Shown here in pieces: positions 659 through 28,605 of a stretch of DNA of 28,628 nucleotides (position 1 is the first letter of the stretch; each line of letters begins with the position of its first letter). The notes under the pieces were generated by a model that was not told where the DNA came from, ran no database searches, and worked only from the letters and a program-made list of their open reading frames with translations. The position numbers and the translations under genes are program-made. The DNA comes from a virus. The stretch lies in IMG/VR virus record IMGVR_UViG_3300009034_000593, positions 1 to 28,628 of that record; one strand, given 5' to 3'.

Positions 659-1624
659 TTATCCATCCCTTATTCCACTAGCATCTATTCTATATACAGC
701 TTCTCCATAAGGTACAGGAGCATCATATACAATAAACTTCCATGTCTTATCTTTCCTAGATATCTGATCTAATGCTACTAAGAAAGTACCACTATGCTCT
801 AGTAGTTTACCTCCTGTAGCTTTAGATCTAGTACCTTCTTTCTTCAATACTCCTAATTGAGCACCTGCATCTGGAATACCCATTACCTGTACTGTTAGTA
901 CGATAGCTATATTATATTTACTAGCTAATGTTTGTAGATATCCTATATGTCTACCTATCTCTTGACTTCTATCTGCTAGTCTGGTTCTACCAGTATAATC
1001 ACTTCTGAACTTAGCAATGAATGAGTCTATAACTATAAGTCCTATATCTAGTCCTTCTTTTATCTTCTTCTCAATAAGCTCATAAGCTCTAAATTGAGAT
1101 GTAACACCAGATATGAACTTAGAAGGAACTACTAATACATCTTCAGCTAAATCTATCTTAACTCCTTGTGCTTCTGCTATTTCTTCTATTCTCTCTGGAG
1201 TAAATGTTTGAGGTTCTGTTTCTACCCAAGCAGATTTCCTATTATATTGTTTTTTATTATTAACTACTAATTGATGAGATATCTGTGTCTTACCAGTACC
1301 AAACTCACCTTTAAATTCAGTAATAGCATCTGTCCATACTCCACCTTTGAGTAGTTTATCTATTCTAGCAGAACCAGTAGATATTTTCTTTAAGTTCTTT
1401 TCTCTGTATTCTTTTAAATCTTGTGCTGTCATTATAACAACAGGACTAGCTTTATCTTTAGCATCATTGATAATCTCTTGAGCTTTCTTAGCTGATATAC
1501 CTAAATATGAACCTAATTCACTGGGTTTCATTATAGATATCTGTTCAGCTTCTTTAATTCCATATTTGATTAGTACTTCTACTTTCTTTGGTCCAATTCC
1601 TTTTATTTCACTTAATTCTACCAT
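659..1624 (-). CDS. radA: RadA-like archaeal recombinase
   Basis: A RecA/Rad51-family ATPase expected to form filaments on single-stranded DNA and catalyse strand exchange in viral recombination, repair or replication restart. Residues 3-57 form a helix-hairpin-helix domain (IKGIGPKKVE, then a second HhH-like segment), as in archaeal RadA. The ATPase core follows: Walker A GEFGTGKT at 106-113, Walker B LIVID at 196-200, a GRTRLADRSQE segment at 212-222, and the L2 region with GTRSKATGGK around 264-273. The length of 321 residues matches cellular archaeal RadA. The polymerisation motif in the linker, normally FxxA, reads I64-M-T-A67, so the usual phenylalanine is isoleucine. It overlaps the upstream gene by seven bases. 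The family call is firm; whether it acts as recombinase or as a DnaB-loading or regulatory paralogue is open. Confidence 0.93.
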   Translation of the reverse strand: MVELSEIKGIGPKKVEVLIKYGIKEAEQISIMKPSELGSYLGISAKKAQEIINDAKDKASPVVIMTAQDLKEYREKNLKKISTGSARIDKLLKGGVWTDAITEFKGEFGTGKTQISHQLVVNNKKQYNRKSAWVETEPQTFTPERIEEIAEAQGVKIDLAEDVLVVPSKFISGVTSQFRAYELIEKKIKEGLDIGLIVIDSFIAKFRSDYTGRTRLADRSQEIGRHIGYLQTLASKYNIAIVLTVQVMGIPDAGAQLGVLKKEGTRSKATGGKLLEHSGTFLVALDQISRKDKTWKFIVYDAPVPYGEAVYRIDASGIRDG

Positions 1625-2112
1625 AATTCTATCTCCTCTTGATCTTCATTACTTCTCCACTTCTTAACTATTAATCCATTTGGTAATTTAAAGATATAAG
1701 ATATAGGTATTATTATACCAGTACTTAGTTTTTCTTCCTCTAAAGTTGAATATGTTTTAACTTTAGTATGAGTTTCTTTAAGAATATGATATTTACCAGA
1801 GTTAATATACACTAATATCTCATCCATTTCTTTATCATTAGCCTCTCTCCAGCTATTAGGCTGAGGTTCCCATGAAGTCATATAAGTAATTGTTGGATAA
1901 TGATGTACTTTTATCTTCTTCTCTATTGGAGGGGCATATCCTCTTGGATCTTTACCTTGATAGATAAGCCAATACCATATCTCTATAAATTCTTCATTCC
2001 AATATTGAGCTACTTGTATATATTCATCTAAGCTTTTCTTTGGATAGTCTGTATTAAGAATATAGACTAGCTTCCATCCTTGAGGCTTAATAATTTCCTC
2101 TCTGTTAGACAT
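1618..2112 (-). CDS. Uncharacterised protein, 164 aa
   Basis: A soluble protein with many aromatic residues (several Trp and Tyr between positions 13 and 85) and no signal peptide, membrane segment or cysteine motif. I see no known catalytic signature. It lies between the ParB-like gene and radA and overlaps both (8 bases upstream, 7 downstream), so it is co-translated with DNA-handling proteins; that context suggests, but does not show, a role in replication or partition. The start ATG at 2112 follows a suitable purine-rich stretch. It could be a virus-specific orphan. Confidence 0.7.
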   Translation of the reverse strand: MSNREEIIKPQGWKLVYILNTDYPKKSLDEYIQVAQYWNEEFIEIWYWLIYQGKDPRGYAPPIEKKIKVHHYPTITYMTSWEPQPNSWREANDKEMDEILVYINSGKYHILKETHTKVKTYSTLEEEKLSTGIIIPISYIFKLPNGLIVKKWRSNEDQEEIELW

Positions 2113-2989
2113 GTCTACTCCTCAACTCATCTATACTCTTAGGTATTATATACATTCTATACCAAGACTTAGTTACTACTTCTAAGAATTCTCCATGTTT
2201 CTCATCTGCATATTGTCTAGCTTCTTCTTCTGATGCTTTGTTAATAGGAATAAAATATTCTACTCTTTTAGGTTGTCCTACTCTTATTCCTATCTCTTGT
2301 TCCATGTCTCTATAGATACTTCCATATCTAAGTGGATACCAGAACTCTTTAACTACTTTAGCTACTTCTGGATGAGTAGTTTCTAACTGTTCTATTCTGC
2401 TGATTACTTTCTTAGCATTATTCTTGAATTTAAGTAAGTCTTCTCTTTGTAGATTCTCTTTTTGGCATCTATCTATCCAATATTTCCATTCTTCTTCTGG
2501 AAAATCATGGATAGCTTGAACAGTTCTAAGTGGTAATGTCAGCGAGCTGACATTCTTCTCTCCTACTCTTAAAGAGGCTAAATGTTCGGTTATTAATGTT
2601 CTAGATTTATGAACATTATATGCTATTTCCTCTTGAGTCATTCCCATTTCTTGCATCTTAGAATAAGCTGTTGCTCTTTCTATCCATAGTAAATCTTTCC
2701 TTACATCATTCTCTATCAATCCAGTTACTAATGCTTCATTTGTATCTACATTCTCTATAAGGCAAGGCATAGTCTTTAATCCTGCTATCTTACTTGCTTC
2801 ATGTCTTCTAGAACCAATTACTAGTTCATATCCATCCTTTACTTCTCTGACTATTACTGGCTGTATAATACCTCTCTTTCCTTGTTTTACTCTAGCTTTG
2901 ATAGATTCTACTAAGCTAGTTAAATCTCCTAAATCTTGTCTAGGATTGATAGTTGATTTTTTTATTTTCTTAATATCTATTTCTTTCAT
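2105..2989 (-). CDS. ParB/Spo0J-like DNA-binding protein (copy 1)
   Basis: A ParB-type protein expected to bind a centromere-like DNA site for partition, nucleoid-type complex formation or transcription control. The N-terminal ParB nuclease-like domain has the NPR motif (15-17), the core GSRRHEA (59-65), which corresponds to the CTP-binding arginine patch in studied ParBs, and an ENDVRKDL box (93-100). A helix-turn-helix follows at about 118-140 (MTQEEIAYNVHKSRTLITEHL). The C-terminal half, about 150-294, is not recognised. No ParA partner is in the window. The coding sequence contains a 20-base near-perfect palindrome at 2535-2554. It starts at ATG 2989 and overlaps both neighbours. A second ParB-like gene lies in the opposite operon at 6606-7505. 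Confidence 0.87.
   Translation of the reverse strand: MKEIDIKKIKKSTINPRQDLGDLTSLVESIKARVKQGKRGIIQPVIVREVKDGYELVIGSRRHEASKIAGLKTMPCLIENVDTNEALVTGLIENDVRKDLLWIERATAYSKMQEMGMTQEEIAYNVHKSRTLITEHLASLRVGEKNVSSLTLPLRTVQAIHDFPEEEWKYWIDRCQKENLQREDLLKFKNNAKKVISRIEQLETTHPEVAKVVKEFWYPLRYGSIYRDMEQEIGIRVGQPKRVEYFIPINKASEEEARQYADEKHGEFLEVVTKSWYRMYIIPKSIDELRSRHV
2535..2554. repeat. 20-bp palindrome inside parB-like copy 1 (candidate parS or operator)
   Basis: Two perfect 9-base arms, AATGTCAGC and GCTGACATT, flank a 2-base centre (GA). The site is locally GC-rich and contains a CpG, both rare in this AT-rich window. On the coding strand it forces the codons GTC, AGC, TCG and CTG, which neighbouring genes seldom use. 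Bacterial parS sites are similarly short palindromes placed near parB. The palindrome is directly visible; the binding role is inference. Confidence 0.55.
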
Positions 2990-6605: not shown

Positions 6606-7505
6606 ATGAAAATACTAGGGATAGAATATTATAATCCTAATGAGTTAGAGCTAAGCGAACATAATGTAAGAAAGATAGAGTTAACAAAGGAGTCTCTTAC
6701 TCCTTTGTTAGATTCTATAATAGAGTTTGGTGGAATAATAGAGCCTATCATTATTACTAAAGATAAGAATATAATATGTGGAAGAAGAAGATGGGAGGCT
6801 TGTAAGATAGCTAGAATAGATAAAATTCCTTGCATGGTAGTAGAATTTGATTTTAAGTTTAATAATGATAAAGATATAGAAAAAACAATAGTATCATATA
6901 TAGAAAATAAAGTATATCAGATGATGACAGAAGATGAAGAAATGGTAACTATAAATAAATTAAGAGAAAAGAATTTAACTATTCAGCAAATAGCTAATTT
7001 GTTAGGTGTTCCAGTTTATGTTATCTCAGAATTATCTGCTAGAAGCAGAACACCACCTGCATTTAAAATATCTGATACAGCTAAAGAAATAGTAGAAGAA
7101 GAAAATACACAATTATCATTAGACCCAAAAGATCAGAAGAAGATAAAGTTAGATCAGAAGTATAAGACATTATCTAAGGCACAACCAAGAAAGTATAGAG
7201 TTGTTAGAAGATTGTTAGATAAGAGTCCATATAATAATGATATTAATGAATCAGCTAGACTATTACAATTCTCACAAGTAGCTACTCTAAGGATGTTAGA
7301 AGATATTGAAAGAGATGTCAAAGTTAAAGCTATACCAGATTTAGAGTTTAGAACAGAAGTAGCAGAGAATAAAGAAGGATATGTACTAAGACAAGTTAGA
7401 TTTCCTAAAGTTCTTAATATAGCAATAGGAGAATACCTTAGAAGAAAAGGACTTGACTTTTACAAAGAGAACATCAGAATATGGATAAAAGAAATAAAGA
7501 AATAA
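6606..7505 (+). CDS. ParB/Spo0J-like DNA-binding protein (copy 2)
   Basis: A second ParB-family protein, divergent from the one at 2105-2989. The N-terminal domain shows N20-VRK (in place of NPR), a GGIIEPIII segment at 42-50 and the core CGRRRWEACKIA at 58-69. A helix-turn-helix is visible at about 124-146 (LTIQQIANLLGVPVYVISEL). The C-terminal half is basic with a region rich in Lys and Arg and is not recognised. The start ATG follows a strong GAGGTGA site at 6592-6598. A 10-T run just behind the stop ends the operon. A 29-base inverted repeat lies within codons 26-35. It may bind DNA for partition, replication control or transcription regulation. Confidence 0.84.
   Translation: MKILGIEYYNPNELELSEHNVRKIELTKESLTPLLDSIIEFGGIIEPIIITKDKNIICGRRRWEACKIARIDKIPCMVVEFDFKFNNDKDIEKTIVSYIENKVYQMMTEDEEMVTINKLREKNLTIQQIANLLGVPVYVISELSARSRTPPAFKISDTAKEIVEEENTQLSLDPKDQKKIKLDQKYKTLSKAQPRKYRVVRRLLDKSPYNNDINESARLLQFSQVATLRMLEDIERDVKVKAIPDLEFRTEVAENKEGYVLRQVRFPKVLNIAIGEYLRRKGLDFYKENIRIWIKEIKK
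6682..6710. repeat. Perfect 12-bp inverted repeat inside parB-like copy 2
   Basis: Arms TAACAAAGGAGT (6682-6693) and ACTCCTTTGTTA (6699-6710) are exact reverse complements with a 5-base loop (CTCTT). It could be a DNA-binding site for the encoded protein or a strong mRNA hairpin that limits its translation. The arms do not resemble those of the palindrome in copy 1. Confidence 0.6.
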
Positions 7506-7561: not shown

Positions 7562-7870
7562 ATGAAAATTAAGATTGGAAATATAGAAATAGATGATTTA
7601 GAATTACAACCATCTGGGATATATAGATATAAGAAGAAAATTAGAAGGCGTGGAACAAAAAAAATTAGACATTGGAGTGAAAATACAATTATTTTAAATA
7701 ATAAGATAATTTATAATTTATTATCTATAGCTGAAGATATTCATAATGCAGGATATAGAGCTAGACAATTTGAAATGACAGTTCTAAGAGATATAATAAA
7801 ACAGATGTTAGATTGTAATGAAAATACAGCTTATGCATATGCTATAGCTTTAATGGTGTTAAATCAATGA
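7562..7870 (+). CDS. Uncharacterised small protein, 102 aa
   Basis: A basic N-terminal half with a run of Lys/Arg (YRYKKKIRRRGTKKIRHW) is followed by a helical C-terminal half. It has no cysteine motif or membrane segment. The frame is open to a GTG at 7550, but GTGAT at 7550-7554 fits the Shine-Dalgarno consensus for the ATG at 7562, so I take the latter. The stop overlaps the polymerase start by four bases (ATGA), so the two proteins are probably made together; a DNA-binding or polymerase accessory role is plausible but unproven. Confidence 0.65.
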   Translation: MKIKIGNIEIDDLELQPSGIYRYKKKIRRRGTKKIRHWSENTIILNNKIIYNLLSIAEDIHNAGYRARQFEMTVLRDIIKQMLDCNENTAYAYAIALMVLNQ

Positions 7871-10347
7871 AATTATCTTTATGTTCAATAGATTATAGAG
7901 AAGAAGAAGAGAAACCAGTTCTATATCTCTTTTGTAGAGATGATAAATATAATAGGTATGAGATACCTATTAGAGATTTTAAACCTTATTTTTATATTAA
8001 AAAGTCCCATTATTTTGGAGTTAAGCCTCATCTTAAAAGATGGAAAAATCAGATAGATTATATATCAACTAAACCTTTACTTTATGATTCATCAAAGATT
8101 AAGATATTTACTAAGTTACCTAGATTTGTAAGAGATATAAGAGTATGGTTATCTTCTTATGAGCTGGTTAAACTAATAGGATTTAGGATTAAATCATATG
8201 AAGCAGATATACTATTCCCATTAAGATTCTTAATTGATAAAGGTATCTTTAATGGTATAGACTATAATCCTGTAACTAAAGAATATAAACCAATAGATAT
8301 GGAGAGTAAAATAAGATTTCTATGTATAGATATTGAAGTAAATATGGATGAGATTAAGGATAATAAAGATGCAGAAGGAGAGTTAATCGTAGTAGGATTA
8401 TATGACTCATTAACTGATAAATATTATATTTATACATCTAAGTACAATAAGAAACTACAAAGTAAGCTAGTAAAATATTTACTACAGAAAGGTAAAGAAA
8501 TAGAGTTTATAAAATGTAAAGATGAATCAGACTTAATGATTAAATCCATTGAATTTATGATTAAAGTAAAGCCAGATATTGTAATGTCTTTCTCTCCTTT
8601 TGATATGGCTTACATAATATATAGAGCTAGGAAGATAGATATCAATATTAGAAAACTATCTCCATTAAATATAGTTAGAATATTCAAGGATGAGAAGGTA
8701 AGGATATCTGGTATTCAAGTTTTAGATATAGCTGAAATGTATAGAGAAACATTAAGAACTTCTAAATGGGAAACATTAGAAGAAGTAGCTCAAAAGGAAT
8801 TGGGTGTAGGTAGAGTATTTCATGATGAGTTGGTTTATGATAACTGGAATAGTAAGAATGATTGGTGGAAAGTAATAGCTAGAAACATGAGAGATATAGA
8901 ATTAATCAAGATGTTAAATGAAGAGTTAGAGTTATTAGAACATTTTGATACAATTAGAAGAACAGTAGGATGTAACTTTAGAGATACATTCTATGCATCT
9001 AGAATAGCAGATGTAATGTTTCTAAGAGAAGTAGATGGAAAAGATATATTACCTTCTAGAAGTATTTATGAGAAATATAAGTACCCTGGAGCTAAAGTCT
9101 TTAAATGTGATAAAGGTATACATAAAAATATAGCTATATTTGACTTTAAAGAGATGTATCCTGTCTTCATAGATATCTTTAATATATCTTATGAAACATT
9201 TAGAGCATTCCCTTCTGATAATACTGTTAAGGTATATGATGGACATTACTTTGTTAAAAATCCTAAAGGATGTACTGTAAATATTATGGATAGGATTAGA
9301 CCAATAAGAGAAAGATTAAAACAACATATGAAGAAACTATCTCCATTAGTTAGAGAATATAAAAGATTAAAATCTAGATCAGATGGATATAAATCTGTTA
9401 TTAATGCAGTATATGGATTCTATGGATTTGGAGGAGATATAGATAAGGGAATACCTTCATCTAGATTATATGCTCCACTTATAGCAGAATCTGTTACTTA
9501 TCCTGGGAGAACTATACTTGAGATGTTAAAAGAGTATATACCAAAGATTAATTATGATATTGTCTATGGAGATACAGATAGTATCTTTATCAAGTTAAAA
9601 ACTAAAAATTTAGAAAAGGAAGCTAAAGAATTACAAAAGAAGTTATCTAAAAAGATTAAACAATTTATTATAGAAACATGGGATGTAGATTCAGAAGAAT
9701 TAAAATTAGAAGTAGATAAGATAGCTACTAAGATAATTCTATTTACTAAAAAGAGATATGTATTAAAGACTATAGAAGGAGATATAGATAGAAAGGGAAT
9801 AGAAGCTATTAGGAGAGAATCATCTAAAACAACTATTGAATTACAGAGGAATATTACCAATATGATTTTAGAGGATAAAACTAAAGAAGATATAGAAAAG
9901 TATCTTACTAAAGAACTAAGAGAATTTAGACATAAACCATTAGAAGAGATAGCTCTATCTCCTAAACTAAGCAAAGCTGAAGATATGTATCCTGTATTTG
10001 CTATACATCTTCAAGCATTTATGTATTCTAAATATAACTTGAATATAGACTTGAAAATAGGTAGTAGATTCTATATGATATATATCAATAAATTACCAGA
10101 TAAATATCCTAGATATATCTCAAGAGTATATAAAAAGAAACTAAAAAGGAAGAAAGCAAAAGTAATAGCATTTAAAGATCCTAGTCAGATACCTAATGGA
10201 TTTAAAGTAGACTATGAAGTTATGATAGAGAAGACAATAAGGAAGAAGATAGATGATTTATTAAATGTTCTAGATATCAATTGGAATAAGATATACTCTC
10301 CATTTAAACCACAGAAGGAATTATTCAATTTTCATAATAGAATGTAA
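7867..10347 (+). CDS. polB: Family B DNA polymerase with 3'-5' exonuclease
   Basis: The viral replicative polymerase, 826 residues. Exonuclease acidic residues are present: D155-I-E157 (Exo I), D246 in SPFD (Exo II) and D343 in RNMRD (Exo III), although the Exo II asparagine and the Exo III tyrosine are not at their usual positions. Polymerase motifs are intact: motif A DFKEMYP at 426-432, motif B K509-SVINAVYG517, motif C YGDTDS with D569 and D571, and the KKRY motif later on. It starts at ATG overlapping the upstream gene. Family B enzymes are usual in archaeal viruses that bring their own replication. It should polymerise; proofreading may be weakened or simply divergent. No intein or insertion is seen. 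Confidence 0.95.
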   Translation: MKLSLCSIDYREEEEKPVLYLFCRDDKYNRYEIPIRDFKPYFYIKKSHYFGVKPHLKRWKNQIDYISTKPLLYDSSKIKIFTKLPRFVRDIRVWLSSYELVKLIGFRIKSYEADILFPLRFLIDKGIFNGIDYNPVTKEYKPIDMESKIRFLCIDIEVNMDEIKDNKDAEGELIVVGLYDSLTDKYYIYTSKYNKKLQSKLVKYLLQKGKEIEFIKCKDESDLMIKSIEFMIKVKPDIVMSFSPFDMAYIIYRARKIDINIRKLSPLNIVRIFKDEKVRISGIQVLDIAEMYRETLRTSKWETLEEVAQKELGVGRVFHDELVYDNWNSKNDWWKVIARNMRDIELIKMLNEELELLEHFDTIRRTVGCNFRDTFYASRIADVMFLREVDGKDILPSRSIYEKYKYPGAKVFKCDKGIHKNIAIFDFKEMYPVFIDIFNISYETFRAFPSDNTVKVYDGHYFVKNPKGCTVNIMDRIRPIRERLKQHMKKLSPLVREYKRLKSRSDGYKSVINAVYGFYGFGGDIDKGIPSSRLYAPLIAESVTYPGRTILEMLKEYIPKINYDIVYGDTDSIFIKLKTKNLEKEAKELQKKLSKKIKQFIIETWDVDSEELKLEVDKIATKIILFTKKRYVLKTIEGDIDRKGIEAIRRESSKTTIELQRNITNMILEDKTKEDIEKYLTKELREFRHKPLEEIALSPKLSKAEDMYPVFAIHLQAFMYSKYNLNIDLKIGSRFYMIYINKLPDKYPRYISRVYKKKLKRKKAKVIAFKDPSQIPNGFKVDYEVMIEKTIRKKIDDLLNVLDINWNKIYSPFKPQKELFNFHNRM

Positions 10348-12311: not shown

Positions 12312-13733
12312 ATGAGCTTAGATCAAGAGATTACTAATATACTTGAAAAGAAAAAGAGAGATGAGTCTGAAGAAATATTATCCAAGGTAATTCGTCTTAA
12401 GAATGAGGATAGTGAGATAGATTTATTTGGTGAGATGGAAGAAAGAGTAACTAGAACTGTACCATTAGATAAATTAGAAAGATTATATAGAATAGATTGG
12501 TTAACATGGAGACAAGTAAATAAATATATAGAGAAGATTGTAGGACCAGGACTAATATTAGAAGGAAATGAAAGAATAGTTAAGATACTTAATGAGTGGA
12601 TAGATAAAGTAGGATTTAAATTTATATTAGAAGAGAATGTAAGAGATATATTTCTAGCTGGTAATGCATGGTCAGAATTAGGATATACTCCTAATGGTAC
12701 TGATATAATTAAAGTACTTATAGTTAATCCTAAGACAATTGATTACATAAGAGATAAACTAACTAAATATGTAGAAGTAGATAAGAAGACAGGAGATTTT
12801 CTAGGATTTAAGAGAGAAAAAATATATCGTTTTGCTGAAGTAGAATATAGAAAAGATAGAATAAAAGTAGCTGGTAAAGTAGTATGGACTCCTAATAAAG
12901 AAGATGAAGATGGTAGGGATAGAATAGTACATCTTAAGTTATGGGGATATGGAGAATCATATATAGGATTAACTCCATTAGAACCATGTTATCTTAATGC
13001 TATTATTAGATTAAATATAAGTAAGAATACAGGAGAAGGAGCATTTAGATCTGGTGGTATTATAGCTTATGTAGGTACAGAAGATAGACCTGCTTCTAAT
13101 AAACAGATAGACCAATTAGGAGAAGATCTAAAGAGTGTAGAAACAGAAACTATATTTGTATTTAAACATAATGTAAGAATAGAGAGATTTCCCTCTCCAG
13201 AGATAGGTGGAAGAGAAGCATTACTTTATTATTATGTAAATACTCAATGTGGTGGAATTGGAATACCTTTTGGTATGATTATGGAACCAGGTTCTAGAGG
13301 ATATAGAGGAGATATGGAACTTAAACTAATGGACTTTGAAACATCTATTAAATCTATACAAGAAAGATTAGCATATCAAATTAGAGAACAATACTTTAAG
13401 AGAGTATTAAAAGCTAGAGGTATAAACCCTGATAAATGTCCTAAAGTAGTATTTAGAACTTATATGCCTAGTGTAGAAAGAGAGAGATATAGAAACATAT
13501 CTTCATTAGCTAGAAGAGGATTAATAAATTATGATCCTAGAATAGCTAAAAGATTATTGAAAGAATTAGACTTACCTACTGATTATATAGATAAAGAGAT
13601 AGAAGAATGGGATAAAAGGAAGAATCCTTTTAAAGTTAAAACACCCAAAAGAAGTAGAGATATAGATATGGGTAAAATAGAAGATTTGGTTGATGAGAAG
13701 ATTGAAGAAAGACTTAGTGAAAGAGAAGAGTAA
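12312..13733 (+). CDS. Portal protein of a tailed virus
   Basis: A 473-residue protein that matches the shape of HK97/SPP1-type portals, which form the dodecameric ring at one capsid vertex through which DNA is pumped. Telling segments are the early YRIDWLTWRQV and GPGLILEG stretch, the FLAGNAWSELGY segment at about 112-123, the LKLWGYGESYIGLTPLEP stretch at about 213-230, and the QCGGIGIPFGMI region followed by a long helix (LMDFETSIKSIQERLAYQIREQYF) typical of the wing/stem. The C-terminus is charged (EDLVDEKIEERLSEREE). GTGAT lies ahead of the ATG. Unusually, no terminase or capsid gene is beside it in this window. Confidence 0.78.
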   Translation: MSLDQEITNILEKKKRDESEEILSKVIRLKNEDSEIDLFGEMEERVTRTVPLDKLERLYRIDWLTWRQVNKYIEKIVGPGLILEGNERIVKILNEWIDKVGFKFILEENVRDIFLAGNAWSELGYTPNGTDIIKVLIVNPKTIDYIRDKLTKYVEVDKKTGDFLGFKREKIYRFAEVEYRKDRIKVAGKVVWTPNKEDEDGRDRIVHLKLWGYGESYIGLTPLEPCYLNAIIRLNISKNTGEGAFRSGGIIAYVGTEDRPASNKQIDQLGEDLKSVETETIFVFKHNVRIERFPSPEIGGREALLYYYVNTQCGGIGIPFGMIMEPGSRGYRGDMELKLMDFETSIKSIQERLAYQIREQYFKRVLKARGINPDKCPKVVFRTYMPSVERERYRNISSLARRGLINYDPRIAKRLLKELDLPTDYIDKEIEEWDKRKNPFKVKTPKRSRDIDMGKIEDLVDEKIEERLSEREE

Positions 13734-19773: not shown

Positions 19774-19814
19774 CTCCTAGACTTATTTAATAAGGTAAGT
19801 GTTAGGTGAGAGTG

Positions 19815-21014
19815 ATGGGAGAGAAAGATTATAGTAAATATAAATTCTTATGGCATTCAGTTGCAGGTAGTGTACGTTCTGGATATGGTAATCTAACTAG
19901 ACAGATTCCTAGTAGATTAGTAGCTAAAGGATTTCAGATATTTGTAAGTGCATATTATGGTTTAGATCCAGGTGGAGTAATATTAATTAATGGTGTACCT
20001 CATCTACCTTCTAAAGTAGGTAGATTTGGAGAACATAGTTGTATAAGACATTTTCAAAGTCTTAAATGTAATGCAGCAATATTAACTACAGACTTCTGGG
20101 CATTTGGATGGTTTCCTCAGAAATTACCATATACAATCTTACATAGTCCTATGGATCATATTAATTATAATGAAGGGTTAATGAATATGGTAAGAGAATA
20201 TAATCAAGTTATTTCTATATGTAAATGGCAAAAGAAAGAACTAAAGAGAAGAGGAATAGAAAGTAGATATATTCCACATGGAGTTGATACTAATGTATTT
20301 CAACCAGTTGATAAGAAAAAGGCTAGAGAGATAACTAGATTCCCCAATGATAAATATATAGTCTTATGGTTAGCAGCTAATTCAGATAAAGAACCAAGAA
20401 AGGGATGGACAGAAGGATTTCAAGCAATTAAATATTTTCTAGAACAGAATCCAGATGCAAAGAAAGATTTTATGGTATTCTGTCATACTAACCCTACAGA
20501 TGAAAGAGGATTTAATCTTATTGCATTAAGAGATTATTTAGGATTAAATGAAATAGTACATTTTGAGAGTCCATTCTTATCTCAAGTAGGATTGAGAGAT
20601 ATGGAGATAGGATTACTATATAATTCAGCAGATATATTATTAAATCCATCTAGAAGAGAAGGATTTGGTATACCAATATTAGAATCTATGTCTTGTGGTA
20701 CTCCAGTTATAGGTACTAATTTCTCTAGTATGATTGAATTAATAAAAGGAAGAGGATGGTTAGCTAAAACAAGAGCAATGGTAATTACTCCTATTATGGC
20801 AGAAACAGCTATACCTGATCCATATAGTATAGCAGATTGTTTAGAAGATGCTTATAATTATCCTAAGAAGTCAATTAAATATAGAAAGAAATGTATAGCA
20901 TTTGCTAAGAATTATGATTGGAATAAAGTAATAGAAAAGAGATGGGTTCCATTTCTAGAATCAGTAATAGAAGATATAAGACCTAAGAGCTTAGATGAGA
21001 GGAAGATAATATGA
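19815..21014 (+). CDS. GT-B glycosyltransferase (GT4-like)
   Basis: A retaining glycosyltransferase of the GT4 type that would move a sugar from a nucleotide sugar to an acceptor. Visible signatures are a glycine-containing start region (SVRSGYGNLTRQIPSRLV), the domain-linking IPHGVDTNVFQP at about 155-166, and the donor-binding segment NPSRREGFGIPILESMSCGTPVIG at about 275-298, with the E-x7-E pair in EGFGIPILE. The length of 399 residues is normal. No signal peptide is seen; the enzyme is probably cytoplasmic or membrane-associated. The frame extends to GTG 19806, but AGGTGA at 19804-19809 is correctly spaced for ATG 19815. It is the first gene of the cassette. Confidence 0.9.
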   Translation: MGEKDYSKYKFLWHSVAGSVRSGYGNLTRQIPSRLVAKGFQIFVSAYYGLDPGGVILINGVPHLPSKVGRFGEHSCIRHFQSLKCNAAILTTDFWAFGWFPQKLPYTILHSPMDHINYNEGLMNMVREYNQVISICKWQKKELKRRGIESRYIPHGVDTNVFQPVDKKKAREITRFPNDKYIVLWLAANSDKEPRKGWTEGFQAIKYFLEQNPDAKKDFMVFCHTNPTDERGFNLIALRDYLGLNEIVHFESPFLSQVGLRDMEIGLLYNSADILLNPSRREGFGIPILESMSCGTPVIGTNFSSMIELIKGRGWLAKTRAMVITPIMAETAIPDPYSIADCLEDAYNYPKKSIKYRKKCIAFAKNYDWNKVIEKRWVPFLESVIEDIRPKSLDERKII

Positions 21015-22891
21015 GATATCCTAAAATATTAATTGGTACAATGCTGAAGAATTCTGGTGGATGGTTATCTAAATATTGGGAAGAAGTAAAGAAACTAGAT
21101 TATCCTAAAGATAAATTAAGAATAGTATTTGTATATGGAGATAGTAAAGATAATACTCTTAAGATAGCTAAAAGAATAGTTAAAGAGAAAGTATGTAATG
21201 TAGAAATATATAAAGAACCTAATGATACTCTTCTTAAGAGAGGGGGAGCACAACTATCTGCTTCTGTTTATAATGATTGGAAGACATTATTAAATGAAGA
21301 TTATTTTATGTTACTAGATTCAGATTTAATAGAGTTACCTAGTAATCTAATAACTGAACTACTAAAAGTTAAAGAAGATATAGTTGCACCATATCCTTGG
21401 TCAGAAGGACATAGACATTTCTATGATTCTTGGATATTCCGTATTGGAAATAAAAGATTTCATCCTATGAATCCTCCAGGTTTAGGATTAAAAGTTCCAA
21501 TAGAAGTAGATTCGGTTGGTACTTGTTTCTTAGCAACTAGAGAATCATATAAAAGTACACCAATAACTAATCCATATCCTAATCTATCATTCTGTAATAA
21601 TGCTAGGAGAATGGGATATAAAGTTATAGCCTTACCATATTTAGAAGTCTTTCATGCAGATATAGAAAAACTAGGTATTATTCATAATCCACTTCCACCT
21701 AAATTAGGTGGATATCCAGAACAAGGATTTATTACATTTCTAGATGATATTAAAACTCTGTCTAGTTTTAAGAAGCATGATTATAAGAATGAGTTTAAGA
21801 TAATAGAGAATGATATTAAAAGACTTTCTTTGGAAAGATATAAAACTAGTCCAATATATAGAAGTAAAGGAGAGAAATGGTCATATAATAAGACACATTA
21901 TGATACATTATGGATGACACAAAATCCTTATTTAGTTAATTTATTATATAAAGTAGCTCCTATTCCTTCATATATAGAAGTAGAAGTTACTACTAAATGT
22001 AATTTAAGGTGTAAGATGTGTGAACATACATACTGGAAAGAACCAAGTATAGATATGACATTTAAACAGTTTAAATATATTATAGATCAATTTCCAAATC
22101 TTAAGTGGATAGGATTAACTGGTATAGGGGAATCTTTTATAAATAAAGACTTTATGAAAATGTTAGAATATGTAAAAAGTAAAGATATTTATGTAGAGCT
22201 ATATGATACTTTCTTTTTCATAAATGAAAATAAAGCTAGGAAGATAATAGAACTAGGAGTAGATAGGATATTTGCTAGCATAGATGCAACTACTAAAGAA
22301 ACATATGAATCATTAAGAGTAGGATCTAACTATGATAGAGTATGGAAGAATGTTAAGAAATTTAATGATTTAAAGAAAGAGATGAATTGTACTCACTATC
22401 CAGAGTTATGTTTTCATTATATAACATGTAAAGATAATATCCATGAGGTATTGGATTATCTAGATCTTTTATATAATTTAAATATAGATGTTCATTTTGT
22501 TCAATATGCTAGAATGTTACATAAATATAAAGAAACAAGAGATATGTTTACAGAAGTACCAGAAACTATACAAAATAGAATATTAAAGAAAGGAAATGAA
22601 CTTGGAATAAATGTATTATGGAATGCTAACTTACCTAAAACTAAACCACCTTTACATACTTGTACTGCATGGTATATGCCTTTTATATTTGTTACAGGAG
22701 ATGTAATATCATGTTGTGCTGAGAATGAACAGAATGATAGAGAATGGCAAAAGGCTGTATCATTAGGAAATATATTTGAAAAGCCATTTAAAGAAATATG
22801 GTATGATAAAAAATATAGAAATATGAGAAAGAAACTTAAAAAGGGTATATGTCCTAAAGAATGTAGAAACTGTCCTGTATATAAGGTGTAA
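21011..22891 (+). CDS. Glycosyltransferase-radical SAM/SPASM fusion
   Basis: A 626-residue two-domain enzyme. Residues 1 to about 240 form a GT-A glycosyltransferase resembling GT2/Anp1-type mannosyltransferases: start KILIGTMLKNSGGWLSKYWE, FVYGDSKDNT around 40-49, and a D-S-D motif (103-105) in MLLDSDLIELPSNLI, which would bind metal and nucleotide sugar. After a linker, residues from about 318 form a radical SAM domain with C330-NLR-C334-KM-C337 (CX3CX2C), an LTGIGESF glycine motif, and a SPASM-like C-terminus with HTCTAW, a CC pair and CPKECRNC at 614-621. One reading frame spans both without an internal start site. It overlaps the previous gene by four bases. The substrate is unknown; coupling sugar transfer with radical modification of the same acceptor is the obvious inference. 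Confidence 0.87.
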   Translation: MRYPKILIGTMLKNSGGWLSKYWEEVKKLDYPKDKLRIVFVYGDSKDNTLKIAKRIVKEKVCNVEIYKEPNDTLLKRGGAQLSASVYNDWKTLLNEDYFMLLDSDLIELPSNLITELLKVKEDIVAPYPWSEGHRHFYDSWIFRIGNKRFHPMNPPGLGLKVPIEVDSVGTCFLATRESYKSTPITNPYPNLSFCNNARRMGYKVIALPYLEVFHADIEKLGIIHNPLPPKLGGYPEQGFITFLDDIKTLSSFKKHDYKNEFKIIENDIKRLSLERYKTSPIYRSKGEKWSYNKTHYDTLWMTQNPYLVNLLYKVAPIPSYIEVEVTTKCNLRCKMCEHTYWKEPSIDMTFKQFKYIIDQFPNLKWIGLTGIGESFINKDFMKMLEYVKSKDIYVELYDTFFFINENKARKIIELGVDRIFASIDATTKETYESLRVGSNYDRVWKNVKKFNDLKKEMNCTHYPELCFHYITCKDNIHEVLDYLDLLYNLNIDVHFVQYARMLHKYKETRDMFTEVPETIQNRILKKGNELGINVLWNANLPKTKPPLHTCTAWYMPFIFVTGDVISCCAENEQNDREWQKAVSLGNIFEKPFKEIWYDKKYRNMRKKLKKGICPKECRNCPVYKV

Positions 22892-22894
22892 TTA

Positions 22895-24148
22895 TTGTCT
22901 AAGGTAGCACTAGTAAATCCTGGTAGAAAGAGGTCATATGCTACTGTCCCTCCATTAAATCTAGGATTTATAGCTAGTTGTTTAGAAGAAGATAATAATG
23001 AAGTTATTATTATAGATGAATTATTAGGAGAAGATGTTAGAGATAGAATAATATCTTTTAATCCAGATATTGTTGGAATTACAGGAGTAACACCACTTAT
23101 ACCACATGCATATAGAATTGGTGATTGGTGTAAGGAAGAAGGTATCTTAACTGTAATTGGAGGAGTACATTCTAGTATTTTACCTAATGAAGCTATTGAA
23201 CATGCAGATATTGTTCTTATTGGTGAAGGAGAAAAGACTATTAGAAAAATAGTTAAAGATAATTCTATAAGAGGAATAATAAAAGGAGAACCAGTTTTAG
23301 ATTTAAATAAAATACCATTCCCTGCATGGCATCTAATTAATATGAAATATTATCTTACTTACAGACAGAGAACAGAGATGAGTTTTCTATCTTTTGCTCC
23401 TAGAACTTCATTAGTTGGTAGTATTTTAAGTAGTAGAGGATGTCCATATTCATGTACTTTCTGTAGAAATTCATTTAAAGGATTACCATATAGATTTAAT
23501 TCTCCTAAAAGAGTAATAGAAGAAATTAAGATATTACAACATGCTTATGGTGTTAGTTCTATATTCTTTATAGAAGATAATTTCTTTTGTAATCATCCTA
23601 GAGTTAAGAAGATATGTAAATTGATATTAAAGAATAATATAGAATTAATATGGGGAGCTAACTCAAGAGTAGATAATATAAATAAAGAAATACTAGAAAT
23701 AGCAAAGAAAGCTGGATGTAAACAGGTTACATTTGGATTTGAAAGTGGATCACAAAAGATACTTAACATATTAAATAAATTAACTACTGTAGAACAGAAT
23801 ATTAAAGCAATTAAGTTATGTAATGAAACTGGAGTATTAGCTAATGGAACTATCATGATAGGTAATCCTACTGAAACAGAAGACGATTTAGAACTAACTA
23901 AGAAATTTATACTTGAGAATAATATTGATGGAGGAGTAGGTATTTGTATCACTACTCCATTCCCAGGAACTGTATTATGGGATTGGTGTAAAACAAATAA
24001 TAAGATTTCAGATGAATTCTGGTGGTCTGACTTTGATTATCATACTATTCCTATTAAGGTATCAGATATTTCTAGGGATAGACTTATGGAAATACATAAT
24101 GAGTTAATATTGATTTGTATAGAAAAATATAGAGGAGGAATACAATGA
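22895..24148 (+). CDS. B12-binding-domain radical SAM enzyme (1)
   Basis: A class B-type radical SAM protein of 417 residues. The N-terminal 120 residues look like a cobalamin-binding Rossmann domain (PPLNLGFIASCLEE, DIVGITGVTP, TVIGGVHSSILP, DIVLIGEGE), without the DxHxxG lower-ligand motif, as in BchE/HpnP-like members. The radical SAM core has C183-PYS-C187-TF-C190, then the FIEDNFF strand and GFESGSQKIL. Family members methylate or rearrange unreactive carbon atoms, for example on hopanoids, fosfomycin-type phosphonates or sugars. The start is TTG 22895, with AGGTG seven bases ahead. Its place between glycosyltransferases suggests a sugar or lipid substrate. Confidence 0.88.
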   Translation: MSKVALVNPGRKRSYATVPPLNLGFIASCLEEDNNEVIIIDELLGEDVRDRIISFNPDIVGITGVTPLIPHAYRIGDWCKEEGILTVIGGVHSSILPNEAIEHADIVLIGEGEKTIRKIVKDNSIRGIIKGEPVLDLNKIPFPAWHLINMKYYLTYRQRTEMSFLSFAPRTSLVGSILSSRGCPYSCTFCRNSFKGLPYRFNSPKRVIEEIKILQHAYGVSSIFFIEDNFFCNHPRVKKICKLILKNNIELIWGANSRVDNINKEILEIAKKAGCKQVTFGFESGSQKILNILNKLTTVEQNIKAIKLCNETGVLANGTIMIGNPTETEDDLELTKKFILENNIDGGVGICITTPFPGTVLWDWCKTNNKISDEFWWSDFDYHTIPIKVSDISRDRLMEIHNELILICIEKYRGGIQ

Positions 24149-25398
24149 AATTATCTTTAATAAATACTAACTTTGGAATAGTTACTGTTCCTTCCCTAGG
24201 ATTAGGATTCTTAGGTGGATATATTAAAGAACACTGTAATGATATAGATATAGAGGTAATAGAACCTAAATTACAGGGAATAACTAGAAAAGAACTATTA
24301 GATAAAGTAAAAAATAGTGATTATCTTGGAATGACTTGTTATACTGAGAATAGATTTGAATGTATTGACTTTGCTAAAGAATGTAAAGATATTAATCCAA
24401 ATATTAAAATAATACTTGGAGGTCCACATACATTTTCTCTTGATAAGTTACTTCTTAAGAATTATCCTTTTATAGATTATATTATTAGAAGTGATGGAGA
24501 AATAGCTCTTAAGAAATTATTGAATAATACTTCATTAAAAGATATTCAAGGATTAACTTATAGAAATAAAAATAGTATTATAAGAAACAAGTTATCTATT
24601 GAAAGAAATATAGATAACTTTAGATATGACTATTCTCTCTGTTATATTAAAGATTGGAAAGATTCTGAAGTACCAAAATATCTTATGAAATATAACCATT
24701 TACCATTTATATCTTCAAGAGGATGTCCATATAATTGTACATTTTGTGCTACTCCTAGAATATGTGGTAGATATTGGAGAGGATATTCAATAGAGATATT
24801 AGTAGATGAATTAGAGTATTTAATAAATAAATATAAAATTAAATATTTTAGATTTTATGATGCTTTATTTATGCCTAATCCTAAACAAGTAGAAAAATTT
24901 TATAAATTAGTAAAAGAAAGAGATTTAGATTTCTATTTCAGAATAGATGCTCATATTGGAACTAAAATGAAAGTATATAAAATGTTAAGAGAAATTGGAT
25001 GTAGCATACTAGGATTTGGTATAGAATCTGGTAGTGATAGAATTCTAGAAGAGATTAATAAAAATATAAGTGTTAAAGAAATATTAGAAACTATTAAAAT
25101 AACTAAGAAATTATATTATTGGATAATAGGATATTTTATGGTATCTCATCCAACAGAAACATTAAAAGATTTTAAGAATACTAAAGATTTAATGGTTAGG
25201 TTTGATGTAAATAATCTACAGTTCTTTAAGATACATCCAGATACTCATTTCTATGATTATCTTAAAAGTAAAGAATATATAAATGATAATGTTTGGTTTG
25301 ATAGAAAATATGGAATTAAAAGTAGATATGGTTATGAAGTATATTATTGTAAAGAACTATTTCCAAATGCACCATTTAGTATAAGGGGATTTGTATGA
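24145..25398 (+). CDS. B12-binding-domain radical SAM enzyme (2)
   Basis: A second protein of 417 residues with the same two-domain layout as its neighbour. N-terminal domain: PSLGLGFLGGYIKEH, YLGMTCYTENR, IKIILGGPHTF, IDYIIRSDGE. Core: C194-PYN-C198-TF-C201, the strand FRFYDALFMPN, and LGFGIESGSDRILEEI. The two proteins share the family layout but differ considerably elsewhere, so they probably act at different steps rather than being a recent duplication. ATG overlaps the previous stop by four bases. The role is expected to be methylation or carbon-skeleton change in the glycan or lipid pathway. Confidence 0.88.
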   Translation: MKLSLINTNFGIVTVPSLGLGFLGGYIKEHCNDIDIEVIEPKLQGITRKELLDKVKNSDYLGMTCYTENRFECIDFAKECKDINPNIKIILGGPHTFSLDKLLLKNYPFIDYIIRSDGEIALKKLLNNTSLKDIQGLTYRNKNSIIRNKLSIERNIDNFRYDYSLCYIKDWKDSEVPKYLMKYNHLPFISSRGCPYNCTFCATPRICGRYWRGYSIEILVDELEYLINKYKIKYFRFYDALFMPNPKQVEKFYKLVKERDLDFYFRIDAHIGTKMKVYKMLREIGCSILGFGIESGSDRILEEINKNISVKEILETIKITKKLYYWIIGYFMVSHPTETLKDFKNTKDLMVRFDVNNLQFFKIHPDTHFYDYLKSKEYINDNVWFDRKYGIKSRYGYEVYYCKELFPNAPFSIRGFV

Positions 25399-26432
25399 GA
25401 ATATTAATTATTCATCCTAGATTTGATATATATGGAGGAGCAGAGTATCTAATAGTTAAGTTAGCTAACTATCTATCTAAAAATCATAATGTTTCTATTC
25501 TAACATGGACTATGTTACCAGAAATAGAAAAGAAGTTTATAGATACTGAAATATATACAGTTCCTTCTACTAAACTAAGAGAATGGCTACATAAATATTC
25601 AGATTTATACGATATTATAAACTCTCATAATCATCCATGTGAATTATTACTATATCCTAAGTCTAAACCTCATGTATGGATGCTTAATGAACCACCTGAA
25701 ATAGTACTTATAGGAGGTAAATTACCTATAAAAGAGAGAGATATAGTTAGAGAGAGTGTAGACAGAATAGTAGTAGTAGATGAATATAATGCTAATAGAT
25801 GTAAGAAGATTTACGGAGTAACTCCTATTATAAATCATTATGGAATAGATTATGATTTCTTCTCTAAGAAAGGTACTTATGATATTAAGAGTGAATATAA
25901 TCTAGAGAATAAATTTATAATAGTACAGACTGGATGGTTTAATAGCTTTAAGAACCAATTAGAAAGTGTAAAGACTATAGGAAAACTTATAGACGAAATA
26001 CCTAATATCAAGTTATTATTAATAGGAACAAATAAAACTCCATATCGTAAAACAGTCTTAAATTATATTAGAAAGAATAACTTAGAAAGTTATGTATCAA
26101 TTATTGGTCATGTTTCTAGAGAGAAAGTGAGAGATTTCTATCATATATCTAATATAGCTCTATTTCCTATTCATACTCAAGGAGGATGGTTAAGTCCATT
26201 TGAATCTATTAGTAGTAATCTACCTATAATTATATCACCAGATGCTCCTTGTTCTAACTTAATAAGGAAACATGATTTAGGAATAGTTACTAGGAGATAT
26301 GATAAGGCTATATTAGATTTATATAACCATCCTATCAAATTAGATTATGCATCTGAATGGGTAAGAGATAATCTAACATGGGGTAGGTTTAGTAAGAAGA
26401 TAGAAGATATATTTCTAGAAGTGATAAAATGA
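25395..26432 (+). CDS. GT-B glycosyltransferase (GT4-like), second copy
   Basis: 345 residues with a typical GT4 layout: HPRFDIYGGAEYLIVKLANYL near the start, NHYGIDYDFFSKKG between the two domains, the strand FIIVQTGWFN where the second domain begins, and a donor-site region GGWLSPFESISSNLPIIIS. The first glutamate of the canonical E-x7-E pair is not present at its usual place; the second is (SPFE). This variant is seen in some archaeal and viral members, so activity may remain. Overlapping junctions (ATGA) on both sides bind it to the cassette. Donor and acceptor unknown. Confidence 0.86.
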   Translation: MRILIIHPRFDIYGGAEYLIVKLANYLSKNHNVSILTWTMLPEIEKKFIDTEIYTVPSTKLREWLHKYSDLYDIINSHNHPCELLLYPKSKPHVWMLNEPPEIVLIGGKLPIKERDIVRESVDRIVVVDEYNANRCKKIYGVTPIINHYGIDYDFFSKKGTYDIKSEYNLENKFIIVQTGWFNSFKNQLESVKTIGKLIDEIPNIKLLLIGTNKTPYRKTVLNYIRKNNLESYVSIIGHVSREKVRDFYHISNIALFPIHTQGGWLSPFESISSNLPIIISPDAPCSNLIRKHDLGIVTRRYDKAILDLYNHPIKLDYASEWVRDNLTWGRFSKKIEDIFLEVIK

Positions 26433-27460
26433 AAACAATATTAATTACAGGTGTAGGTGGGTTTGTAGGAAGTAATATTGCTGAATATTATATTAGAAAA
26501 GGAGATAAAGTAATAGGGATAGATAATCTCACTAAACATGAGTTAATAAAAACTGGATATAAAGTAAATGAATCTAGAGAGTTTATCTGGAATAATCTTA
26601 AAAAGATTGGTGTAGAATTACACTTAAGAGATATAAGAAATCCATTTATTGAAAAACATATGTATCAAGATATAGATTATATTGTTAATTGTGCTGCTCA
26701 GCCAGCTATGACAATATCTATAGAGAAACCAGATTTAGATTTAAATGTAAATGTATTAGGTACTCTAAACTTATTAGAATTAGCTAGAAAGTTAGATATT
26801 CCTATATTACTTTTCTCTACTATTCATGTATATGGTACTGGAATAAATAATGAGATAGAAGAAGGAAAGACAAGGTATATAAGAAATCCAGTAGAAATAT
26901 CAGAATCTCATGAAATATTAACAGGAATATTAACTCCTCTACATGCTTCTAAGAGAGCTATGGAAATATATGGTAAGACTTATACTGATACTTATGGTTT
27001 GAGAGTAGGAATATTTAGAGCTACTGGAATGTATGGTTCTAAACAATTTGGTGGAGAAGATCATGGATGGGTAGCTAACTTCTGTATTAGAAATATAATG
27101 GAATACCCTATTACTATATTTGGTACTGGTAAACAAGTAAGAGATATACTTTATATTGATGATGTAAATAGAGCTATAGATGCTTATTATAAGAATAGTA
27201 ATGTATCTGGAATATTTAATATTGGTGGAGGAGAAGATACAATGATTTCTTTAATAGAATGTATTAAATTAATAGAGGAGATTACTGGTAAGAAATCTAA
27301 TATACAATATAAACCAGAAAGGAAGGGAGATTTAAGATATTTTGTTTGTGATAATTCAAGAGCATTTATCTCTTTAAACTGGAAACCAAGTATTAAACCT
27401 AAGGAGGGAATAACTAAATTAGTTAATTGGATTAGAAGGAATAAGGAGTTATTTAAATGA
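26429..27460 (+). CDS. NAD-dependent epimerase/dehydratase, CDP-tyvelose 2-epimerase-like, lacking catalytic Tyr
   Basis: An extended short-chain dehydrogenase with TGVGGFVGSN (GxxGxxG, residues 8-14) for NAD binding, an aspartate for the adenosine ribose (GIDNLT), and S/T in LFSTIHVYG. Its second half (MYGSKQFGGEDHGWVANFCI, then FGTGKQVRDILYIDDV) is like CDP-paratose/tyvelose 2-epimerases. In the catalytic YxxxK motif the tyrosine is replaced: the sequence reads P-L171-HAS-K175 (codon CTA). Related enzymes use that tyrosine as acid/base, so this protein either uses another residue, has lost activity, or binds without catalysis. It overlaps both neighbours by four bases. Confidence 0.85.
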   Translation: MKTILITGVGGFVGSNIAEYYIRKGDKVIGIDNLTKHELIKTGYKVNESREFIWNNLKKIGVELHLRDIRNPFIEKHMYQDIDYIVNCAAQPAMTISIEKPDLDLNVNVLGTLNLLELARKLDIPILLFSTIHVYGTGINNEIEEGKTRYIRNPVEISESHEILTGILTPLHASKRAMEIYGKTYTDTYGLRVGIFRATGMYGSKQFGGEDHGWVANFCIRNIMEYPITIFGTGKQVRDILYIDDVNRAIDAYYKNSNVSGIFNIGGGEDTMISLIECIKLIEEITGKKSNIQYKPERKGDLRYFVCDNSRAFISLNWKPSIKPKEGITKLVNWIRRNKELFK

Positions 27461-28173
27461 AAGCTTTAATACTTGTAGCAGGAAAAGGAGAAAGAATTAA
27501 TTCAGAAGATAAAAATAAATGTATGATTACCATAAATAATAAACCAATACTAGAATATAATTTAATGAGGGCTTATGATATACCATATATTGATAAAGCA
27601 ATAATAATAATTGGATATAAAGGAGAAGGTATAAAGAAATACTTTGGTAAATATTATCATAATTTACCTATTAGATATATTTTACAGAAGAAACAGAAAG
27701 GAATTATTAATGCTATTGGCTTAGCAAGAGAAGAAATAGGTGATGATGACTTCTTTCTTTTATTAGGAGATGAGTTATTAATTAATAGTAGACATTTAGA
27801 AATGGTAGAGAAATTCATTTGTGATTATAGTTTGTTTGGATTATGTGGAATTGTGTATGATAAAGATAAGGAATCGGTTAGGAAGACATACTCTGTTAAA
27901 ACAAAGAGTAAAAGAATAATTAAATTAGTTGAGAAACCTAAGATAGTTAGAAATAAAATTAAAGGAACTGGACATTGTGTTTTTAGAAATAGAATTCTTT
28001 CTTACATTAATGATTTACCAATTAATAAAGAAAGAAAAGAATCTGATTTTGTATCTCTAGTACAAATATCTATTAATGATGGTAAGAGAGTAGAGATATT
28101 TAATATATGTGATAAGTATTTTAATATAAATACTAAAGAAGATTTATTTTTAGCTAAACAGTATATAGAATGA
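27457..28173 (+). CDS. Sugar-phosphate nucleotidyltransferase
   Basis: A 238-residue NDP-sugar pyrophosphorylase that activates a sugar-1-phosphate with NTP. The signature LVAGKGERI at 6-14 matches the usual LAAGxGTRL, followed by KCMITINNKPILEY, the metal/substrate motif LLLGDE at about 107-112, and VEKPKIV at about 153-159. The length corresponds to the simple RfbA/RfbF-like or GalU-like core without a C-terminal helix domain. It would supply the donor (for example a CDP- or dTDP-sugar) for the upstream glycosyltransferases and epimerase. It is the last gene of the cassette, overlapping the previous gene by four bases. Confidence 0.87.
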   Translation: MKALILVAGKGERINSEDKNKCMITINNKPILEYNLMRAYDIPYIDKAIIIIGYKGEGIKKYFGKYYHNLPIRYILQKKQKGIINAIGLAREEIGDDDFFLLLGDELLINSRHLEMVEKFICDYSLFGLCGIVYDKDKESVRKTYSVKTKSKRIIKLVEKPKIVRNKIKGTGHCVFRNRILSYINDLPINKERKESDFVSLVQISINDGKRVEIFNICDKYFNINTKEDLFLAKQYIE

Positions 28174-28215: not shown

Positions 28216-28605
28216 ATGTCTGAATCTTATGTTCGTGTACCTCCAGATTCGACAGGTAAGAAACTAAGAGCTATAGAGAGAACTATAAGTGGAGAAACAG
28301 TTTTAGATGAAGTATTAGAAATAGCAGATCCTACTACTGGAGATGTTATAGATCCAAGACAGATAAGAACTATAACTGAAACAATACCAGTTGATATAGG
28401 TTCTTCTACTCTAGAAATTAATACTATAGATATGCTTACAGATGGAACAGTAGCTGTTAAGAACACTGTTGAAGTTACTGCTACTGCTTTAGATATAAGA
28501 ACAATTATAGAAACTATTCCAGTTAGTTTTTCTGGTGGAACATTAGATAGTTCGGGTGGCGTTTCTGTGGGTGGTTCTGCTGGTTCGGGTAACTTAAAGC
28601 GATAA
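28216..28605 (+). CDS. Probable virion structural protein, 129 aa
   Basis: The protein starts SESYVRVPPDSTGKKLRAIE, is otherwise rich in Thr, Val, Ile, Asp and Gly without cysteine, and contains two related segments, RTITETIPVDIGSSTLE and RTIIETIPVSFSGGTLD, that suggest a duplicated beta-strand unit. The end is Gly/Ser-rich (SSGGVSVGGSAGSG, then NLKR). This composition is usual for tail-fibre, baseplate or capsid-decoration proteins. It is separated from the sugar cassette by 42 bases with GTGA before the ATG. Codon use changes toward GGT, GTT, TCG and CGA near the end. It could receive the glycan made by the upstream cassette; that is speculation. Confidence 0.65.
   Translation: MSESYVRVPPDSTGKKLRAIERTISGETVLDEVLEIADPTTGDVIDPRQIRTITETIPVDIGSSTLEINTIDMLTDGTVAVKNTVEVTATALDIRTIIETIPVSFSGGTLDSSGGVSVGGSAGSGNLKR

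Follow-up and report, generated by a model that had tools for sequence, protein, structure and literature searches.

A glycan gene cassette with radical SAM proteins, recurrent in tailed viruses most likely of archaea

Why a viral genome should carry a row of seven sugar-related genes, three of them with a radical S-adenosylmethionine (SAM) domain, and whether such a row belongs to the virus at all, are the questions raised by positions 19806-28173 of the DNA analyzed here. The window, that is, the whole stretch of 28,628 nucleotides, is nearly the entire IMG/VR record IMGVR_UViG_3300009034_000593 (28,629 bases), which is without end repeats. We propose that tailed viruses, most probably infecting archaea, carry and maintain such a row as a single glycan module, which would transfer an unusual sugar either to an acceptor in the cytoplasm, with virion proteins the likeliest, or to lipid carriers that the host exports. 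We put the probability of this reading, which is drawn from sequence, at roughly one half.

The cassette consists of seven open reading frames (ORFs), here termed A to G, all on the plus strand, with ATGA overlaps at five joins (A/B, C/D, D/E, E/F, and F/G) and a spacing of 3 nt between B and C, where C starts with a TTG codon. Gene A (19806..21014, 402 aa) encodes a GT-B/GT4 glycosyltransferase (PF00534, 4.6e-13; phrog_2170, 1.1e-34) and B (21011..22891, 626 aa) a GT-A domain (residues ~1-260) fused to a radical SAM/SPASM domain (~318-626), as seen from matches to the Pfam models Anp1/GT2, Radical_SAM, and SPASM. C (22895..24148) and D (24145..25398), each of 417 aa, are B12-binding-type radical SAM proteins (PF02310 and PF04055). 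The remaining three are core genes, namely E (25395..26432, 345 aa), a GT4 glycosyltransferase (PF00534, 4.1e-14) with 36-42% identity to viral and cellular orthologs, F (26429..27460, 343 aa), an extended short-chain dehydrogenase/reductase (SDR) of the nucleotide-sugar enzyme type (Pfam Epimerase) from a tyrosine-less "PLHxSK" subfamily, and G (27457..28173, 238 aa), a sugar-1-phosphate nucleotidyltransferase (PF00483, NTP_transferase, 2.7e-18). G scores below the cut-off of every curated model to which it was compared (Arch_glmU, 104 of 292 bits; AglF, 101 of 400; RmlA, 94 of 320) and is best taken as a putative nucleotidyltransferase without a sugar assignment from those models. An earlier note on this DNA had described seven nearly gapless genes with ATGA overlaps and had named two GT-B enzymes, a glycosyltransferase-radical SAM fusion, two B12-type proteins, and a nucleotidyltransferase, all of which agrees with the joins and with Pfam, where PF04055 (Radical_SAM) matches three times in the record, each time above cut-off. 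Its end point of 28173 is also correct, while its start at 19815 is an internal, alternative ATG of gene A, which opens at the GTG at 19806.

Cellular relatives exist for genes A-G, and it could thus be argued that the cassette comes from a cell and that the contig is chimeric or was mis-sorted. However, there is no step in GC content or in GC at third codon positions (GC3) at either cassette edge, with GC3 values of 0.11-0.15 in the cassette and 0.13-0.21 in the rest of the contig, and a separate contig of 16.6 kb (L167) repeats the gene order behind the same viral genes. In L167, genes for family B DNA polymerase (PolB), protease, and portal protein that are 36-42% identical to those of the window are followed by those for NrdD and a phosphoesterase-like protein and then by A (7675-8883, 41% identity), a 98-aa ORF, the fused B (46%), E (40%), three other genes, F (53%), and G (27%). 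The cassette thus occupies one and the same position on this viral backbone, which excludes both a join artefact and host DNA, and protein identities of 27-53% exclude one chimera common to both contigs. The cassette moreover recurs near virion genes elsewhere, and the viral copies form their own clade. We therefore reject this view of the contig, which we regard as very improbable indeed. The earlier note's placing of the cassette within a viral genome is supported by L167 together with six further viral loci beside terminase, portal, and capsid genes, and these loci speak against the broken edges or cellular flanks that it had named as contrary evidence. A shorter contig (L195) contains the PolB-protease-portal-NrdD stretch and ends short of the cassette region; judged by their identities, the window, L167, and L195 are old relatives. 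The anaerobic ribonucleotide reductase NrdD upstream of the cassette in L167 (4870-6618) hints at an anoxic host, and the interval between E and F in that contig (12105-14134) encodes one protein with a 3'-phosphoadenosine 5'-phosphosulfate (PAPS)-reductase domain and two that match the phosphatase superfamily weakly.

How general the arrangement is was seen from 2.9 million IMG/VR contigs scanned with alignments of B and of the SDR. Nine records contained the F subfamily, and B and E accompanied it in every one, always as B-E-F; the gene set is therefore beyond chance. A second viral lineage (L085, L086 with its near-copy L087, L088, L089, L090, L219, and L170) has B as the radical SAM part alone, followed by E, C in some members, F, G, and two GT4 genes, and then by terminase, portal, protease, and HK97 capsid genes. 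C lies between E and F in L088, L089, L090, and L219 (46-50% identity to the window copy), the cassette stands just upstream of TerL, portal, and HK97 capsid genes in L085, L086, L088, L089, L090, and L219, and L170 has B and E and lacks F and G. In L085 (4223-5653; Cpn60_TCP1, 3.9e-99), L086, L089, L090, and L170, a thermosome-like chaperonin gene lies upstream, either adjoining the cassette or one or two small genes (for example an SDR) away from it. In a third type (L084 and L165), the order is A, a separate GT-A gene, an SDR, B, E, F, and G, so that the two halves of the window's fused B are separate genes in L084; A is split by an intein-like insert and in L084 is 32% identical to the window copy. 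Only the window and L167 showed the fusion, the radical SAM part standing alone in the other viruses and in cells. The viral core order is thus B-E-(C)-F-G. With its insert, the A-type glycosyltransferase of L084 (3029-5347; also in L164 and L165) is 772 aa long; residues 155-288 weakly match the model of B12-dependent ribonucleotide reductase, a family in which inteins can occur, and an HNH/NUMOD3 endonuclease gene lies upstream. An intein inside a glycosyltransferase, if this is what it is, would be unusual.

The trees point to a shared history. The viral copies form a single clade for B (100/100, among 10 viral and 18 cellular rows), E (97/95), and C (93/93, or 99/97 before L219 was added), while for F the support is 81/70 and one viral clade is not shown; the cellular rows were picked by F similarity and genome searches, and an unsampled cellular branch could fall within the viral clade. 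Since viral B and viral E each form one clade, the cassette core was probably acquired once and then maintained as a virus-borne module, and since two or more viral backbones share the module, with core genes in one viral clade, it is likely to serve the viruses and not simply to ride along as cargo. The nearest cellular B is from Methanoperedenaceae GB37 (L023, 59% identity), followed by those of G166 (L178), which belongs to that phylum too, and of Methanospirillum (L021). At an E-value of 1e-60, B was found in 3 of the 295 genomes sampled from the phylum of the Methanoperedenaceae (Halobacteriota-type), in none of 227 from that of the Helarchaeota (Asgard), and in none of 300 from that of the Bathyarchaeota. 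Because B orthologs are so rare in archaeal genomes, the closeness to Methanoperedenaceae hints at the source without identifying a host. Overall, the cellular relatives are scattered over archaea and bacteria. Among 53 cellular F loci, and within the flanks that were fetched, a G ortholog is present in 35, F and G are adjacent in 27, B is present in 16, and E in 15.

Based on the protein families, their co-occurrence, and a fusion of E to G, we now put forward a sequence of steps for the cassette, which is known here from its genes alone. G would convert a sugar-1-phosphate to a nucleoside diphosphate (NDP)-sugar, which F would alter, possibly by dehydration or oxidation rather than by classical epimerization. 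Assembly of a short glycan would fall to E, A, and the GT-A domain of B, and radical reactions on the sugar, such as dehydrogenation, deoxygenation, or C-methylation, to the SPASM half of B together with C and D. The sugar would then be transferred either within the cytoplasm, where we consider virion proteins the likeliest acceptor, or onto lipid carriers of the host, which host enzymes would export. That donor synthesis is tied to transfer is suggested by loci of Nanoarchaeota/Pacearchaeota, where E and G are fused into one protein (L034:5170-7065, L042:6661-8541, and L060). Glycosylated virion proteins are known from archaeal viruses, and it has been suggested that a transferase encoded by the virus is responsible (PMC10384203, PMC10848311).

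What the viral cassettes lack bears on where the sugar is transferred. Clusters with orthologous B, F, and G occur in GB37 (L023), Methanospirillum stamsii (L021), and Scalindua (L053), as in the viruses, and the first two have E as well, with B-E-F-G in the viral order. These cellular loci look like surface-polysaccharide loci, with Wzx-type flippases (PF01943) and glycosyltransferases near the homologs in L021, L009, L018, and L054. Given such relatives, and reports of O-antigen-type genes and glycosyltransferases of families GT2, GT4, and GT9 in viruses of methane-cycling archaea (PMC9723712), the target could be the host envelope, where host flippases and transferases would put the precursor on the S-layer or a surface glycan and thereby change a receptor or block superinfection, as in phage serotype conversion. 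This is possible, and we give it distinctly less than even odds. Unlike the cellular loci that were checked, which encode multi-pass membrane proteins, the viral cassettes have no membrane-bound step: a simple hydropathy scan, in which the flippases served as a control (10-14 segments), found no multi-pass membrane protein in them. Because the viral cassettes are without a flippase, polymerase, oligosaccharyltransferase, or other such protein, we consider cytoplasmic transfer or export by the host most likely. In one lineage, furthermore, the cassette is directly 5' of the terminase, portal, and capsid genes, which is more like late virion genes.

The radical SAM proteins are consistent with sugar chemistry, and they also bring in a third possible target. 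In B, the CxxxCxxC motif and the SPASM cysteines are invariant in 13 aligned sequences, in agreement with a radical SAM/SPASM protein. The best named model for this half is that of a tungsten cofactor maturase (TIGR04317), at 135 bits against a cut-off of 380. If B were indeed a maturase, the SPASM protein might act on a ribosomally synthesized and post-translationally modified peptide (RiPP) or a cofactor, or else, as the contig encodes dCMP deaminase and MazG-like proteins, the cassette might glycosylate hypermodified DNA bases. DNA glycosylation is practised by phages. We nevertheless consider a nucleic acid or peptide target improbable, as B is far under the maturase cut-off, no precursor peptide was noticed, the orthologs are in polysaccharide loci, and the cassette is without a base-modifying enzyme. 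C and D pass the B12-binding and Radical_SAM Pfam cut-offs and contain the CxxxCxxC cysteines (C183, C187, and C190 in C), so they belong to the B12-binding radical SAM superfamily, with cobalamin as a predicted ligand. The AlphaFold2 model of C (pLDDT 90.5) has as its nearest solved fold AprD4 (6fd2; query-normalized TM-score, TMq, 0.82), a radical SAM 1,2-diol dehydratase that acts on a sugar in apramycin biosynthesis, followed by TsrM, OxsB, and MgmA. The modeled fold would fit sugar deoxygenation or methylation and chooses neither. By sequence, the AprD4 match of C has an E-value of 1.5e-17, but C reaches only 79 of 500 bits on the NCBIfam cut-off, with 22% identity, and the BchE and HpnJ models score higher. 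The curated cut-offs of AprD4, BchE, HpnJ, and HpnR are missed by far, and equivalog status of C and D is not supported. No ortholog of D was found in any locus fetched, the best match having 29% identity or less, and relatives of C are rare among phage records (3 of 50,697), with some among predicted viral structures.

F is the least conventional component. Its best match, in both sequence and fold, is CDP-tyvelose 2-epimerase, TyvE (TaTyvE, 9RL0; 1ORR), which is the best PDB match at 1e-49 and gives a TMq of 0.88 (1orr) for an AlphaFold2 model with a pLDDT of 93. The catalytic triad of TyvE is Thr124/Tyr164/Lys168, with a catalytic role for Tyr164 (PMC13098431, PMC7851689). The F subfamily retains Lys168, Trp207, Phe211, Arg299, the Gly motif, and the Thr/Ser of the triad, whereas in 56 of 56 aligned members Tyr164 is replaced by Leu (Leu171 in F, motif PLHxSK), Trp210 by Asn, Gln205 by His, and Ser193 by Gly. 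The triad is therefore incomplete, as is the CDP-binding set Trp207/Trp210/Phe211, in which the other two residues are kept, and we rejected "epimerase" as a firm label. Because the residues are strictly conserved, the subfamily is probably functional, either with another reaction type or with another base in place of the tyrosine. This Tyr is also missing from some FlaA1/PglF-type 4,6-dehydratases. The subfamily is widespread in bacteria and archaea, strictly conserved even without its catalytic tyrosine. The earlier note had suggested that the set could activate, epimerize, transfer, and methylate or rearrange a sugar; activation and transfer fit the families, epimerization cannot be assumed, and the nearest solved fold of C, AprD4, is no methylase.

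Several points weigh against the proposed module. The absence of the catalytic Tyr from F is one, and another is that membrane genes might sit beyond these viral fragments. The history of G appears mixed, the window copy being nearer to those of cells (41-49% identity) than to those of other viruses (about 26-34%, with 27% to L167). The C homolog of L090 (7020-8279) reads RGCPYKYTFC, one of the three cluster cysteines being Tyr, and this copy may be inactive or reflect a sequencing error. Finally, a DNA search of 295 genomes, all of one phylum, gave no clear spacer or provirus; the matches were mostly to a conserved RadA motif, together with short weak ones. We take archaea to be the most likely hosts of the viruses with the cassette; the archaeal-type RadA in the window points that way, and the second lineage has a thermosome-like gene.

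Viral glycan genes are mostly viewed as single acquired genes, whereas here there is a multi-gene radical SAM sugar module. Glycosyltransferases, nucleotide-sugar enzymes, O-antigen-type genes, and radical SAM genes have been reported from viruses whose hosts are methanogens or methanotrophs (PMC9723712), and phages such as Streptomyces phage SF3 encode B12-type radical SAM proteins of the same kind as C. In the literature searched, whose coverage was partial so that absence is not proven, we found no description of a conserved cassette or of a shared viral clade. We offer a bolder and somewhat unlikely form of our proposal, in which tailed archaeal viruses would use a dedicated cassette, long apart from its cellular sources and moving between viral lineages as a unit, to decorate their virions while still inside the cytoplasm. 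The sugar would be remodeled by radical SAM enzymes and by the tyrosine-less SDR, which would catalyze a new type of reaction. The cassette offers a small, soluble pathway in which the action of radical enzymes on surface sugars can be tested.

The rest of the window, probably a viral fragment of 28.6 kb, has the genes of a tailed virus in part. RadA recombinase (659..1624, minus strand) has archaeal RadA as its best PDB matches (9.5e-46) and, among phage records, matches only haloarchaeal viruses; an alignment scan with RadA recovered no relative. PolB (7867..10347, plus strand; PF00136, 2e-42) is 36% identical to that of L167 and 35% to that of L195. The portal protein (12312..13733, plus strand; phrog_9232, 1.3e-5), consistent with a tailed, HK97-type virus, is 42% identical to that of L167 and 41% to that of L195, and its profile had no match in the PDB. 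Terminase and HK97 capsid genes are not in the fragment; the second lineage with the cassette has both. The fused B and the portal had no match among the 50,697 phage records, and single-sequence scans with B and the portal (viral contigs) and with B (genomes) were empty, exact short peptide patterns being too strict where alignments worked. Directly after the cassette, at 28216-28605, is a 129-aa ORF rich in Ser/Thr/Gly that begins MSESYVRVPPDSTGKKLR; it matches no profile library or phage record, and its product may be a candidate virion protein. The earlier note's "next to virion genes" thus holds only in a weak sense, through the portal at 12312-13733. The left part of the window also encodes a protease (phrog_20754, 2.5e-32), a DHH phosphoesterase, MazG, HD, and DUF6899 proteins, a dCMP deaminase, and a metallophosphatase, as well as two distinct ParB-like proteins (2105-2989, minus strand, and 6606-7505, plus strand) that are divergently transcribed.

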